NCBI GenBank assembly: GCA_947564645.1
Contig: CANOCU010000021.1
Span: 1-55,213 of the forward strand
DNA from: an uncultured Lachnospiraceae bacterium
GTDB taxonomy: Bacteria > Bacillota > Clostridia > Lachnospirales > Lachnospiraceae
Length of the DNA stretch: 55,213 nucleotides
Direction of reading: 5' to 3'
This document shows positions 22,822 to 33,000 of the stretch, in pieces; position 1 is the stretch's first letter, and each line of letters begins with the position of its first letter. The notes under the pieces are model-generated. The model saw nothing but the letters and a program-made list of their open reading frames with translations. It did not search any database and was not told where the DNA came from. Made by a program: the position numbers and the translations under genes.

Positions 22822-23508
22822 ATGGGACAGAAAGTATTAGTGGTTGATGATGAAAAATTGATCGTAAAAGGCATCCGTTTCAGCCTGGAACAGGATGGAA
22901 TGGAAGTGGATTGTGCTTACGACGGGGAGGAAGCGCTGGAACTGGCGAAGAACAATACATATGATATGGTGCTTCTGGATGTCATGCTGCCCAAGATGAC
23001 AGGATTTGAGGTTTGTCAGCAGATCCGGGAATTTTCCAATGTTCCGATCGTTATGCTGACCGCCAAAGGCGAGGACATGGATAAGATTCTCGGACTGGAT
23101 TACGGCGCGGATGACTATATCACCAAACCATTTAATATTCTGGAGGTCAAAGCCAGGATCAAGGCGATCATGCGCAGAACCGCCCGCGGCAGTGATAACA
23201 GAGCTGCCGCGAAGGTGGTGGAGAAAGGCGGTATGCGGTTAGACTGCGACAGCAGGAGAGTCTATATTGATGGAAAAGAGATCAATCTGACGGCGAAGGA
23301 ATACGAGGTGCTGGAGCTGTTGATGAAGAACCAGGGCAAGGTGTACAGCAGGGAGAACCTGCTGAAGCTTGTGTGGGGTAACGATTATCCGGGAGATGTC
23401 AGGACTGTGGATGTACATATCAGAAGACTGAGAGAAAAGATCGAGAACATCCCGGGAGAGCCGGTATGCGTCAGAACTAAATGGGGTGTAGGATACTATT
23501 TTGCTTAA
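22822..23508 (+). CDS. OmpR-family response regulator (WalR-like)
   Basis: A 228-residue regulator: receiver domain with VVDDEKL, phospho-acceptor in MVLLDVMLP and K in YITKPFN, then a winged helix ending DVRTVDVHIRRLREKIE. The closeness to WalR/PhoP proteins and the pairing with a kinase of the WalK plan suggest control of envelope functions. It lies between comEA and comEC, 15 bases after comEA, and overlaps the kinase gene by 8 bases. Confidence 0.93.
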   Translation: MGQKVLVVDDEKLIVKGIRFSLEQDGMEVDCAYDGEEALELAKNNTYDMVLLDVMLPKMTGFEVCQQIREFSNVPIVMLTAKGEDMDKILGLDYGADDYITKPFNILEVKARIKAIMRRTARGSDNRAAAKVVEKGGMRLDCDSRRVYIDGKEINLTAKEYEVLELLMKNQGKVYSRENLLKLVWGNDYPGDVRTVDVHIRRLREKIENIPGEPVCVRTKWGVGYYFA

Positions 23509-24973
23509 AAATAAACTATGTAACATAAAAATTCTAAGAAGTCTGAAATCCAGAATCTTCCTGATCCTGCTCATAGTCGGATTGGTTCCCTGTATCAGTA
23601 TGCGGTATGCGATCTTACAGAACTATGAGCAGCGGGCTGTCAGTGTCAAAATTTCTGACGTCTCCACACAACTTAAAATTCTCGCCAATCACCTGATAAC
23701 ATATCACTACCTGCAGGATACCTCGTCCGAAGTGATCAATGCGGAGCTGGATCAGCTGTCAAGCCTTTATGACGGACGGGTGTTGGTGATCAATAATGAT
23801 CTTAAAGTAGTGAAAGATACTTATGGGATCAGTGAGAATAAGACCATTATATCGGAGGAGGTAGTGCGCTGTATCAAGGGTGAAAATACCAGCCGGTATG
23901 ATAAGAACAACGGCTATGTGGAAATGACGATTCCCATTACGGAGACGGTCACCTTCGGCGGCGATGAAAAGGAAAAGATAGAGCGGATAGAGATCGTGCG
24001 GGGCGTTATGCTGGTGAGCGCCTCAACAGACAGCATCAGGATAACGATGGAAATCCTCAGCCGTAAGGCATTGATCGTGGAGGTCATCGTCATTCTGGCG
24101 ATTGTCATCGTTTCGGTGTTGGCGGCAAAAGTTCTGATCAGGCCTTTCGAGAAAATAACGGAAGCATTGAACCGGGCGCAGGAAGGTTATACGGATGATC
24201 CGATCTCTGTTACGGACTGCCTGGAGACCGAGCATATAGGCGACGCTTTTAACAGGGTTTTGGGAAGAATGAAGGTACTTGATACTTCCAGGCAGGAGTT
24301 CGTTTCCAATGTGTCTCATGAGCTCAGGACGCCGATCACTTCCATGAAAGTTCTGGCAGATTCCCTGATCAGTCAGAAGGATGTGCCCATAGAATTATAT
24401 CAGGAATTTATGACGGATATTGCCGAGGAGATCGATCGGGAGGATAAGATCATTACGGATCTTCTTTCTCTTGTGAAAATGGACAGGACTGCGGCAGATT
24501 TAAATATTACAGAGGTAGATATCGATGCGTTGGTGGAGCTGATTATGCGCAGGCTGCGCCCTATTGCGCAGAACAGGGATGTGGAAGTGGTATACGAGAG
24601 TGTACGCCCGGTGACGGCCGCGGTGGATGAAGTCAAGATGACTCTGGTTATCTCCAATCTGGTGGAGAATGCGATCAAGTACAATAAAGAGCATGGGTGG
24701 GTCAAGGTGAAGCTGGATGCCGACCATCAGTTTTTTACGGTGGAAGTGGCGGATTCCGGGGTGGGCATTCCGGATGAGTGTCTGGATCATATCTATGAGA
24801 GATTTTTCCGTGTCGATAAGTCACGTTCCAGAGAGATCGGGGGTACAGGCTTAGGCCTGGCGATCACCAGAAGCGCTATCCTCATGCACAGAGGAATCAT
24901 TAAGGCGGAGAGTGTCGAAGGGGAGGGGACTACTTTTACGATTAAAGTACCCTTAAAGTATATTCCTGTATGA
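23501..24973 (+). CDS. Sensor histidine kinase (WalK-like)
   Basis: A 490-residue kinase starting at TTG 23501 inside the regulator gene. It has a membrane helix at about 18-36, an extracytoplasmic domain (about 40-185) of PAS/Cache size, a second helix (about 188-210), HAMP, the H-box NVSHELRTPITSMKVLADS and an ATPase domain (SNLVENAIKYN, DSGVGIP, GGTGLGLAI). There is no cytoplasmic PAS domain, unlike true WalK. The start codon is unusual, but translational coupling explains it. The signal is unknown; GerMN and competence genes next to it suggest surface or growth-phase cues. Confidence 0.9.
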   Translation: MLKNKLCNIKILRSLKSRIFLILLIVGLVPCISMRYAILQNYEQRAVSVKISDVSTQLKILANHLITYHYLQDTSSEVINAELDQLSSLYDGRVLVINNDLKVVKDTYGISENKTIISEEVVRCIKGENTSRYDKNNGYVEMTIPITETVTFGGDEKEKIERIEIVRGVMLVSASTDSIRITMEILSRKALIVEVIVILAIVIVSVLAAKVLIRPFEKITEALNRAQEGYTDDPISVTDCLETEHIGDAFNRVLGRMKVLDTSRQEFVSNVSHELRTPITSMKVLADSLISQKDVPIELYQEFMTDIAEEIDREDKIITDLLSLVKMDRTAADLNITEVDIDALVELIMRRLRPIAQNRDVEVVYESVRPVTAAVDEVKMTLVISNLVENAIKYNKEHGWVKVKLDADHQFFTVEVADSGVGIPDECLDHIYERFFRVDKSRSREIGGTGLGLAITRSAILMHRGIIKAESVEGEGTTFTIKVPLKYIPV

Positions 24974-28676: not shown

Positions 28677-29099
28677 ATGAGAAAAGTATATCCTGTAATT
28701 TTTACACCGGTACATGATGAGAAAGACACGATATTGATTGAAGTGCCGGATATGAAGATATTGACAGAAGGGTATGGCGCGGCAGATGCCGTCTGCATGG
28801 CGCGGGATGCGATCGGATTGAAGGGAATATGCTGTGAAGACGAGGGCAGGGAGATTCCTCCACCTAGCGAAATAGGCGCCGTGGATCTGTCCGAAGGGAC
28901 TTTTACAAAAGAAGGGGAAAGCTATCTTTCCCTGGTAGATATCGACTTCGCGGAGTATCGACGCAGGATGGATCATAAAACGGTACGACGCAATGTGACG
29001 CTTCCCAACTGGCTGAATCAGGAGGCGGAGAAAGCGCATCTTAATGTGTCCGGAGTATTGCAGGAAGCGCTGATGGCGAAGCTGAATGTGTCAAGATAA
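28677..29099 (+). CDS. hicB: HicB-type antitoxin
   Basis: A 140-residue protein. The N-terminal half (YPVIFTPVHDEKDTILIEVPDMKILTEGYGAADAVCMARDAIG) is the degenerate RNase H-like HicB domain that covers the toxin. The C-terminal part (TVRRNVTLPNWLNQEAEKAHLNVSGVLQEAL) is a ribbon-helix-helix DNA-binding domain, so it probably represses its own operon. ATG 28677 has CGGAGGCAGAG just upstream. The pair has the composition of the chromosome, so no recent transfer is obvious. Confidence 0.92.
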   Translation: MRKVYPVIFTPVHDEKDTILIEVPDMKILTEGYGAADAVCMARDAIGLKGICCEDEGREIPPPSEIGAVDLSEGTFTKEGESYLSLVDIDFAEYRRRMDHKTVRRNVTLPNWLNQEAEKAHLNVSGVLQEALMAKLNVSR

Positions 29100-29201
29100 A
29101 TAAATGACGACCGGAAGCATGAAGGAGCAAAGAATTTGTTTTTAGATAATTATATGATTTGTGGCAACAATATATTTTAAGAAGAAGGAGAGGTGATCAT
29201 T

Positions 29202-30125
29202 GTGGCAAAAAGAATATTAGACTGTTATGCGTCGGACTTCGCGGGTTTCACGAAGAGGGATCTGCTGGAATCCATACGCAAGAGTGAGGGGCGCGTCATG
29301 CTCTGCGAGACGATCGGCACGGTGCGGCCCATGCTGGGGGATGTGACCAATGCAGAGTTCGTGTCGGCTATGGGCGCGGACCTTGTGCTGTTAAATATGT
29401 TTGATGTGAATGCGCCCGTGATCGAGGGACTGCCGGAGGGGAAGCCGGAAGATACCGTGCGGCTGATCAAACGGCTGACGGGACGCCCGGTAGGGATCAA
29501 TCTGGAACCGACGGATATCGGTGAGGATGCGGAAACGTCCCCGCTCTGGCAGATGTCTGCCGGACGGCGCGCCACCCTGGAGAATGCACAGCGCGCCTGC
29601 GATATGGGGGTGGATATGATCCTGCTTACCGGCAATCCGGGGATGGGTGTAGACAATGAGGCCATCGAGGAAACGCTCCGTCTGTACAGGAAGAATCTGG
29701 GCGACAGAGTCATTCTGGCCGCGGGCAAGATGCATGCGGCGGGAATCCTTACGGAAGCCGCGCAGCAGATCATGACGAAGGAGGACTGCAGACGGTTCAG
29801 GGAGGCAGGGGCGGATATCCTGCTCTTTCCCGCGCCGGGGACGGTGCCGGGCATCACGATGGAGTACGTGCGGGAGCTGGTCGGTTACGCGCACAGTCTG
29901 GGCGCACTGACGATCACGGCGGTCGGCACATCCCAGGAGGGAGCGGATACGGACACCATCCGCCGGATCGCGCTGATGTGCAAGATGACCGGTACGGATA
30001 TGCATCATCTGGGCGACACCGGCTATACGGGGATGGCGCTGCCGGAGAATATACAGGCGTATTCGGTGGCCATGCGCGGCGTCCGGCATACGTATCACCG
30101 GATGGCGGCATCGGTGCGCAGGTAA
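29202..30125 (+). CDS. TIM-barrel protein, PEP-mutase-like (DUF7916 type)
   Basis: A 307-residue cytoplasmic protein with alternating strands and helices of a TIM barrel: VMLCETIGTVRPMLGDVTNAEFVSA, GADLVLLNMFDVN, GRPVGINLEP, GVDMILLTGNPGMGVDN, ADILLFPAPGTVPG and a final glycine-rich TGTDMHHLGDTGYTG. It resembles proteins annotated as PEP phosphonomutase-like in gut Clostridia and enterics; no reaction is established for them that I know of. I start at GTG 29202, with AAGGAGA about 11 bases before; the GTG at 29193 lies on top of that site. It stands before the REC-synthetase gene with a 113-base gap. Confidence 0.7.
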   Translation: MAKRILDCYASDFAGFTKRDLLESIRKSEGRVMLCETIGTVRPMLGDVTNAEFVSAMGADLVLLNMFDVNAPVIEGLPEGKPEDTVRLIKRLTGRPVGINLEPTDIGEDAETSPLWQMSAGRRATLENAQRACDMGVDMILLTGNPGMGVDNEAIEETLRLYRKNLGDRVILAAGKMHAAGILTEAAQQIMTKEDCRRFREAGADILLFPAPGTVPGITMEYVRELVGYAHSLGALTITAVGTSQEGADTDTIRRIALMCKMTGTDMHHLGDTGYTGMALPENIQAYSVAMRGVRHTYHRMAASVRR

Positions 30126-30238: not shown

Positions 30239-31309
30239 ATGCAAAAGATATTGGTAGTAGACGATGCGGCGGTGAACCGTGAACTGCTGCAGGAAATGTT
30301 AGAGGACCATTATGCGATCGAGATGGCGGAGAACGGCCATCAGGCGCTGAGAAAGCTTCTGGAGTACAAGGGGGAACTGGCGGCGGTGCTCTTGGATCTG
30401 CAGATGCCGGAGATGGACGGATATGCGGTGATCGATGCGATGAAGGAGAACGGATGGCTGGAACAAATCCCGGTGCTGGTAATAAGCGGCGAGAATGGGG
30501 CAGAGATCGAGAGCCGCTGCCTGTCGGTCGGGGTTTCTGATTTTATCCACAAACCCTTCGACAGTTCTATTGTCAAGAACAGGGTCAGGAATACGATCGA
30601 TCTGTTCACATATAAGAACAGCCTGGAACAGCAGGTGGAGGAGCAGCGGCAGACTTTGCGGCAGCAGGACCGGATCATCCGCATCCAGGCCGAGAAGCTG
30701 AAGGAGGCGGAGCCTTTTCACCGGCTGATGATGGAGTACCGGTTTGCCATCATGGAGATCGAGACGAGGCTTAAGGTGCTGAACGAAGAGTTCTCGCGGG
30801 AATATAAGCGCAATCCCTTCGAATCCATCAAGAGCAGGCTAAAGACACCGGAGAGCATTTATGAGAAGCTGGAGCGCAAGGGATATCCGATCACGGTGGA
30901 GAATATCAGGGAACATCTCACGGACGTGGCGGGACTGCGGGTCATCTGTTCTTTTCCGGATGATATCTACAGACTGGCGGATCTGGTCATCCGGCAGGAC
31001 GACATCCTTCTTCTGCGGAAAAAAGATTATATACAGCATCCGAAGGACAACGGATACCGGAGCCTGCACCTCATACTGAGCGTGCCGATCTTCCTCTCCA
31101 ATGAGAAAAAGTATATGAAAGCGGAAGTCCAGTTCCGCACGATCGCCATGGATTTCTGGGCCAGCCTGGAGCATAAGCTGAAATACAAGAAGGACATTAA
31201 GAATGCGGCGGGGATCGTGGCGCAGCTGAAAGTCTGTGCCGATTCCATCGAGATGCTGGATTATCAGATGCAGGATCTGCGCAATAAGATTGATATGGAC
31301 GGATGCTGA
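30239..31309 (+). CDS. Receiver domain fused to a RelA/SpoT-type (p)ppGpp synthetase
   Basis: A 356-residue protein. Residues 1-120 form a receiver domain: acidic pair D8-D9, phospho-acceptor D53 in LLDLQMPEMDG, S83 and K105 in FIHKPF. A coiled coil (about 125-160) links it to a small alarmone synthetase domain (about 165-350): SIKSRLKTPESIYEKLERKG, DVAGLRV with D229, NGYRSLH with Y273, and AEVQFRTIAMDFWASLEHKLKYK with E296. These are the synthetase residues of YjbM/RelQ-type enzymes, which make (p)ppGpp from ATP and GTP or GDP. No hydrolase domain is present. Phosphorylation of the receiver could therefore switch alarmone synthesis (inference). ATG 30239 is the family-like start; in-frame ATG 30194 would add 15 residues. 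No kinase is adjacent. Confidence 0.88.
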   Translation: MQKILVVDDAAVNRELLQEMLEDHYAIEMAENGHQALRKLLEYKGELAAVLLDLQMPEMDGYAVIDAMKENGWLEQIPVLVISGENGAEIESRCLSVGVSDFIHKPFDSSIVKNRVRNTIDLFTYKNSLEQQVEEQRQTLRQQDRIIRIQAEKLKEAEPFHRLMMEYRFAIMEIETRLKVLNEEFSREYKRNPFESIKSRLKTPESIYEKLERKGYPITVENIREHLTDVAGLRVICSFPDDIYRLADLVIRQDDILLLRKKDYIQHPKDNGYRSLHLILSVPIFLSNEKKYMKAEVQFRTIAMDFWASLEHKLKYKKDIKNAAGIVAQLKVCADSIEMLDYQMQDLRNKIDMDGC

Positions 31310-32010: not shown

Positions 32011-33000
32011 ATGCAGAAATTAGCGGAAGAGATCAAAACAGGACAACTGAAACAGGTATACATCCTGTACGGAGAAGAGGCATATCTGCGCAGCCAGTAC
32101 AAGGACAAGCTGAAAAAGGCATTGCTCGGCGATGGAGACGATATGAACTGTCACTATTTCGAGGGGAAGGGAATCTCATCGGGAGAGGTGATCGATCTGG
32201 CTGAGACTATGCCCTTTTTTGCACAGCGCCGGGTGATCATATTGGAGAACAGCGGCCTTTTTGCAAGAGGCGGGGAGGAACTGGCGGCCTATCTGGGCAG
32301 TCCGGCTCAGACGGCGTACTTCGTGTTCGTGGAGCAGACGGTAGACAAGCGCAGTAAGCTGTATAAGGCGGCGACGGCCAGAGGGCGGGCCATTGAGTTC
32401 AAGCCTCAGGATGAGGCCGTGCTGAAAAGATGGATCCTGGGTTTTCTGAAGAAAGAGGATAAGAAGATCACGGAGCGGGATCTGGATCTTTTTCTGGACA
32501 AGACCGGCTCCGGTATGGAGAATATCAGAGGAGAGCTGGAGAAGCTTTTCTGTTACTGCATGGGGCGGGACGTGATCACGGCGCAGGACATCGAGGCGGT
32601 GTGCACGCGGCAGGTGAGCAGCCAGATCTTCGATATGATAGGCGCGGTGGCGGAGAGGCGGCAGAAGACGGCCCTGGATCTTTATTACGATCTGCTAACG
32701 CTGAAAGAGCCGCCCATGCGGATCCTCTTCCTGATCACGAGGCAGTTTAATCTGCTCCTGCAGGTGAAGGAACTGAAGAATAAAGGCTATGACGCCAACA
32801 CTATCGGCAGCAAGGTGGGACTGGCAGGGTTTATTGCCAGGAAATATGTGACACAGGCCGCCAGATTCCGGGAGGAGGATCTGCGCAGGGCACTGACGGA
32901 CTGTGTGGAGACGGAGGAAGCGGTCAAGACCGGCAGGATGAACGATGTGATGAGTGTGGAGCTTCTGATCGTGAAATACAGCGCGGATAATACAGCGTAA
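32011..33000 (+). CDS. holA: DNA polymerase III subunit delta
   Basis: The clamp-loader subunit that opens the sliding clamp. The 329-residue length and the start MQKLAEEIKTGQLKQVYILYGEEAYLR are typical, followed by the AAA+-like fold without a working Walker A, the FFAQRRVIILENSGLF strand, and the collar domain (about 215-329, LKEPPMRILFLITRQFNLLLQVKEL). No Shine-Dalgarno is visible before ATG 32011, which is unusual here. It lies downstream of the LysR/AraC remnants, so its original upstream control may have been lost. Confidence 0.94.
   Translation: MQKLAEEIKTGQLKQVYILYGEEAYLRSQYKDKLKKALLGDGDDMNCHYFEGKGISSGEVIDLAETMPFFAQRRVIILENSGLFARGGEELAAYLGSPAQTAYFVFVEQTVDKRSKLYKAATARGRAIEFKPQDEAVLKRWILGFLKKEDKKITERDLDLFLDKTGSGMENIRGELEKLFCYCMGRDVITAQDIEAVCTRQVSSQIFDMIGAVAERRQKTALDLYYDLLTLKEPPMRILFLITRQFNLLLQVKELKNKGYDANTIGSKVGLAGFIARKYVTQAARFREEDLRRALTDCVETEEAVKTGRMNDVMSVELLIVKYSADNTA

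Follow-up and report, generated by a model that had tools for sequence, protein, structure and literature searches.

Among the closest described relatives of the protein reported here are the small alarmone synthetases (SAS) RelP and RelQ. Excerpts of PMC5794853 describe RelP of S. aureus as always active, with an ordered G-loop, name no known effector for its cleft, and assign helix alpha-1 of RelQ to part of the pppGpp site. Control of RelP is transcriptional and runs through the two-component systems WalKR or VraRS in B. subtilis and S. aureus (excerpts of PMC5794853 and PMC10117726). The solved chains of RelP (SAS2/YwaC; S. aureus 6ewz and 6fgj, B. subtilis 6fgk) have 237 and 210 residues, too short to hold a receiver. 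RelQ (SAS1/YjbM; 5dec and 5ded) belongs to the same enzyme superfamily as the protein described below (E about 1e-33).

Receivers joined to an enzyme are found in the Rec-GGDEF proteins DgcR and WspR (and PleD), where both the enzyme and the messenger are different. The lengths of their linkers step by 7, with a leucine repeat at position a and weak d and e positions, and the register shifts on pseudo-phosphorylation (excerpts of PMC8041772). PDB entries 9g85 and 9g86 are titled PleD with c-di-GMP and ppGpp or pppGpp, another receiver-linked enzyme touching both messengers.

A receiver on a RelP-type synthetase

We analyzed a 55,213-nucleotide stretch of DNA, the whole of which we call the window, from an uncultured Lachnospiraceae bacterium (contig CANOCU010000021.1, positions 1 to 55,213). 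It encodes a genuine fusion of a receiver (REC), a coiled coil and a RelP-type synthetase. Whereas RelP is controlled by transcription (excerpts of PMC10117726), the fusion carries a receiver on the enzyme, and the two-component input that is transcriptional for RelP elsewhere would here be located on the enzyme itself. The gene and its parts are as follows.

30239..31309, + strand: REC-coiled coil-RelP-type small alarmone synthetase gene (open reading frame, 356 aa, ATG at 30239)
30248..30586, + strand: receiver domain PF00072, residues 4-116 (Pfam Response_reg, 81 bits)
30395..30397, + strand: D53 codon, predicted phospho-acceptor (D in 53/53 aligned and 9/9 held-out proteins)
30551..30553, + strand: K105 codon, conserved receiver lysine (K 47/53 and R 6/53 aligned; K 9/9 held-out)
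30587..30706, + strand: predicted coiled-coil linker, residues 117-156, extending receiver alpha-5 (AF2 helix, a-positions, linker lengths)
30707..31294, + strand: RelP-type (p)ppGpp synthetase domain, residues 157-352
31040..31057, + strand: G-loop segment P268-Y273, with the RelP-type proline and the guanosine-binding tyrosine (each 53/53; roles from excerpts of PMC5794853)

The mechanically called reading frame opens further upstream, at a GTG, and has 443 aa. Because the relatives align from residue 1, which is Met in 59/62 (a TTG, CTG or Val codon stands there in L050, L056 and L100), the ATG at 30239 is probably the correct start. A promoter and terminator scan of the window gave a result near chance.

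At E up to 0.001, Pfam gives only two domains in the window protein: Response_reg at residues 4-116, with 81 bits, and RelA_SpoT at 199-319, with 113.7 bits. Each is well over its cut-off, and hydrolase, TGS and ACT domains are therefore absent by this search. The receiver has its acidic pocket (D8 and D9), the phospho-acceptor position D53, S83 and K105. A first-pass annotation, made from the DNA letters and translated reading frames, had described these same five residues, followed by a coiled coil and a synthetase-only RelA_SpoT domain, and this anatomy holds, the coil being present as a predicted helix.

Conservation of the fusion

The same annotation had put the domain order forward as one to look for across genomes. 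A contig scan returned 55 loci, 50 of them with a full-length match. We aligned 53 proteins, namely the full-length loci minus L074 plus four from a genome search (the window's own among these), and held out 9 further fusions with 70.8-84.3% identity to their nearest aligned member. All 62 share the REC-coil-SAS layout and every sequence is distinct; clustering at 95% identity gives 46 groups. Chance or an assembly artefact is ruled out by these relatives, which include COE1, MD308 and 1XD21-13, records without a MAG label.

Loss of the key receiver residues in close homologues would, according to the annotation, have counted against its reading, and for the most part they are kept. Asp53 and D9 are each kept in 62/62, and position 83 is S or T in 62/62 (S in 44 and T in 9 of the 53 aligned). 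The exceptions are D8, which is D in 51/53 and E in the other two (2/62 overall), and K105, which is R in 6/53 (6/62 overall). In the held-out fusions the receiver positions are intact in 9/9, with T at S83 in one, as are the synthetase positions, with K at R213 in one.

In CheY, such a lysine change can uncouple phosphorylation from switching. The K105R proteins are thus a warning that phospho-switching may be altered in some members of the family. The six in question (L007, L051, L059, L062, L069 and L072) retain D53 and form a natural series for switch loss.

In 11 chosen pairs, dN/dS of the receiver was 0.056-0.187. The synthetase gave 0.025-0.081 (9 pairs computable), and the coil 0-0.041 in 7 of 8 computable pairs and 0.341 in the remaining one, the little-diverged L060/L076; for the coil, 3 pairs were not computable.

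The synthetase domain

Excerpts of PMC5794853 name ten ATP- and GTP-site positions in S. aureus RelP (R78, K80, S84, K88, R91, D107, R112, Y151, E174 and H190). The window protein has the matching residue at 10/10 (R200, K202, S206, K210, R213, D229, R234, Y273, E296 and H312), which bears out the annotation's claim of catalytic and GTP-stacking residues. Eight of them (R200, K202, S206, K210, D229, Y273, E296 and H312) are invariant in the 53 aligned and 9 held-out proteins. R234, the equivalent of RelP R112, is R in 51/53, the other two being without a residue call, while R213, the equivalent of the ATP contact R91, is variable (R 36, K 8, L 7, Y 2; n = 53).

Judged by its sequence, the fused synthetase is of the RelP type, not the RelQ type, and the domain is also RelP-like in fold comparison. 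The RelP-type G-loop proline, P268, is present in 53/53. In contrast to RelQ, where F42, T44 and N148 belong to the pppGpp site, the fusions have S (48) or A (5), K (52) or G (1), and D (53) at the equivalent positions (n = 53). Given these replacements together with the RelP-type proline, we would not expect RelQ-style stimulation of the fusion by pppGpp, and the three replaced residues rule out RelQ-type allostery as a candidate. The equivalents of RelQ K25 (K in 45/53) and E41 (E in 53/53), which we take to be further contacts of the pppGpp site, are largely kept, so that the case for lost pppGpp binding is made by F42, T44 and N148. The host genome has five RelA_SpoT matches.

The coiled coil

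In the AF2 model, which is of the monomer only, one helix spans residues 109-155, there is a break at 156, and a second helix spans 157-189; with a pTM of 0.61 the relative placement of the two halves is left loose. The coil is predicted to be a continuation of receiver alpha-5 that ends almost where the first helix of the synthetase begins. Its heptads have V133, L140, I147 and L154 at a, and Gln at d (136, 143 and 150), a position that is mostly Gln across the family; the e positions are mostly small (137 and 151), with 144 mixed. Hydropathy power at the 3.5-residue period is a modest signal, matched by 46 of 5000 column shuffles (47 ungapped sequences).

The D101-E173 spacing is 72 residues in 47/53 proteins, 65 (minus one heptad) in 4 (L043, L073, L080 and L081), and 68 in 2, the last being 4 short rather than 7. 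Set beside the DgcR type, the coil is predicted to be continuous with alpha-5 and has a spacing of 72 or 65 in 51/53 but 68 in two, hydrophobic a positions, mostly Gln at d, and an output that is not GGDEF. Because the coil design resembles that of Rec-GGDEF linkers (excerpts of PMC8041772), it suggests the same kind of transmission, with a register shift in the fusion standing as an analogy only.

Among the 50 entries listed in a PDB fold comparison, each covers one half of the protein only, which excludes nothing. The top match in a viral fold library is a phage response regulator protein (357 columns, rmsd 16.5, TM 0.39). Full-length matches recur at ranks 9 and 15, with rmsd above 20, and the named proteins among the other leading matches are mostly receivers, histidine kinases and RelA/SpoT proteins.

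Distribution and origin

The fusion gene is patchily distributed. The full fusion occurs in 14/61 relatives, all 14 within 37 same-genus genomes, the window's included. A family sample contains it in 13/397, the last fusion scoring 631 bits versus 341 bits for the best receiver-less match. In samples of the class (391 genomes) and phylum (299), the receiver is covered only in the window's genome among the matches listed, at thresholds of E up to 1e-70 and 1e-68, respectively, with only 5 or 6 candidates scored per genome, under which independent receiver-SAS fusions of other parents would fall below threshold. None of 31 matching plasmid records and none of 33 matching phage records covers 80% of the query. 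In one C. difficile plasmid record (CP103805.1, H13), a gene annotated as a diguanylate cyclase matches query residues 2-240 at 33%.

A maximum-likelihood tree was built from 55 SAS domains, 25 fused and 30 stand-alone, of which 54 rows are different. In it, a branch supported at 100/99 has all the fused domains, and no others, on one side. The nearest stand-alone SAS, L086, joins at 98/91, and its 16-kb locus has no receiver match. As the fused synthetases form one well-supported group among stand-alone Lachnospiraceae SAS, a single origin of the fusion, within Lachnospiraceae, is probable.

The relatives of the other half are REC-HD regulators of Lachnospiraceae (e.g., L148), whose receiver and coil are at best 62% identical to those of the fusion over residues 3-156. 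Among 150 genomes sampled from the family, the top match to receiver plus coil outside the fusions is in G108 (62% over residues 3-156), and it ranks above the fusion in G111. Pairwise alignment with the REC-HD protein is gap-free over window residues 3-156 and breaks down beyond, and the outputs differ, being HD_5/HD by Pfam in the three REC-HD proteins scanned (L148, L150 and L123) and a synthetase in the fusion. A REC-GGDEF protein of the host, L124, is less similar (34%). We take the REC-HD relatives to be HD-GYP-like, which would make a c-di-GMP role probable for them.

In a receiver tree with distant outgroups, a branch of 82/59 separates the 25 fusion receivers from 21 putative REC-HD receivers (HD type by Pfam for L148, L150 and L123, and by translated stretch only for the others); the outgroup branches are long, and so weak a branch does not prove descent from REC-HD or its direction. 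The fusion is probably an output-domain swap, in which a stand-alone RelP-like synthetase took the place of the HD output behind a REC-HD receiver and coil.

Gene neighborhood

The fusion gene is flanked by a DUF7916 gene and by holA, and a comEC-like gene lies upstream of it. The neighbors discussed here are the following.

22822..24973, + strand: separate two-component pair, made up of a histidine kinase (23501-24973) and an OmpR-type response regulator (22822-23508), 5-7 kb upstream (Pfam)
28677-29099: HicB-like antitoxin gene, two genes upstream (PF15919, 28.6 bits versus a cut-off of 27)
29193..30125, + strand: DUF7916 protein gene, 113 bp upstream (Pfam, 429 bits)
32011..33000, + strand: DNA polymerase III delta subunit gene (holA), downstream neighbor

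The observation in the first-pass annotation that no kinase is adjacent was correct, the kinase pair above lying 5-7 kb upstream. An orthologue of that kinase (85.6-97.2% identity) is found near the fusion gene at 10/49 other loci. At the other 39, 4 have a distant kinase-like match and 35 are without any in the DNA examined; contigs end early in several, so this absence is not proof. No two-component signaling family was found by Pfam in at least 2 of 114 neighbor proteins from 37 loci, the neighbor frames having been called by a longest-ORF rule (sometimes antisense) after removal of 12/49 near-duplicate loci and within-cluster repeats. The annotation had looked to conserved gene neighbors as a guide; no clustered frame of 90 aa or more is common to most loci, and the widest occurs in 15/50, the window included. 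These surveys rule out a conserved kinase partner as a general rule (10/49 loci; no family repeated). Of 87 matches to HATPase_c in the host, a family that also includes non-kinase ATPases, 84 are above cut-off.

Proposed control of alarmone synthesis

We consider it likely that the fusion is an orphan response regulator in which phosphorylation tunes alarmone synthesis via the coil. Asp53 would receive its phosphate from a kinase whose gene lies elsewhere, or from acetyl phosphate, and the phosphorylated receivers would re-pair. The change would then travel along the alpha-5 coil as a pairing or register shift, as reported for DgcR, and arrive at helix alpha-1 of the synthetase, a helix that forms part of the allosteric cleft in the RelQ tetramer, with the outcome that (p)ppGpp synthesis would be altered. 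The model presumes enzymatic activity, phosphorylation with its effect and direction, and a quaternary state. Since the RelP cleft is without a known effector in the excerpts of PMC5794853, the fusion may give that cleft, by covalent input, what RelQ obtains from pppGpp.

With rather less assurance, at slightly better than an even chance, we lean toward the broader reading that a gut Lachnospiraceae clade rewired its alarmone control, so that a phosphorelay acting via coil and alpha-1 would set synthesis, with a c-di-GMP-type output swapped out and neither ribosome stalling nor new transcription needed.

As to direction, our guess tips modestly toward activation by phosphorylation over repression. 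The repressing version, a sub-case of the orphan regulator in which alarmone synthesis would start when the signal is lost, is possible, if on the unlikely side. According to excerpts of PMC5794853, RelP has an ordered G-loop and is intrinsically active, and the RelP-type proline is present in 53/53, so an added domain could most simply inhibit; against this, the sense described for DgcR is activation (excerpts of PMC8041772).

RelP of S. aureus is, by the excerpts of PMC5794853, always active, so the receiver could inhibit or could only localize. It is doubtful, though, that receiver and coil are a constitutive dimerization or localization module to which phosphorylation is irrelevant, the synthetase being expression-controlled like RelP. 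The R at K105 in 6/53, the lack of a conserved kinase neighbor, and the always-active, WalKR- or VraRS-controlled RelP (excerpts of PMC5794853 and PMC10117726) would all fit such a module, and a stable dimerizer would conserve its coil too. A mere dimerizer, however, need not keep Asp53 in 62/62 with D9 and S/T83 intact, and the dN/dS of the receiver is low. That the protein is no regulator but a toxSAS belonging to a conflict or toxin-antitoxin system, with the HicB-like gene at 28677-29099 as its possible partner, is very improbable: it would suit the patchy distribution (14/37 in the genus, 13/397 in the family sample) and the position of that gene two genes upstream, but the SAS domain is RelP-like in sequence and fold and groups with stand-alone Lachnospiraceae SAS, and no neighbor frame of at least 90 aa recurs in most loci (widest 15/50).

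If the orphan regulator is real, it would be a fast post-translational (p)ppGpp switch, a simple purified system for how a small synthetase gets controlled, and a natural case of an input module passing between second-messenger circuits.

Every part of the fusion is already known separately. The REC-SAS combination was not found in the titles and abstract starts of the open-licence papers listed, and the excerpts of a 2011 RSH survey (PMC3153485) hold no mention of it; it may quite possibly have been noted earlier as a domain architecture in subscription papers, domain databases or response-regulator censuses. Another unusual SAS fusion was seen at L121:1050-2501 (genome G006), where the frame of a small alarmone synthetase runs on into a GDSL lipase/acylhydrolase domain to give 483 aa.
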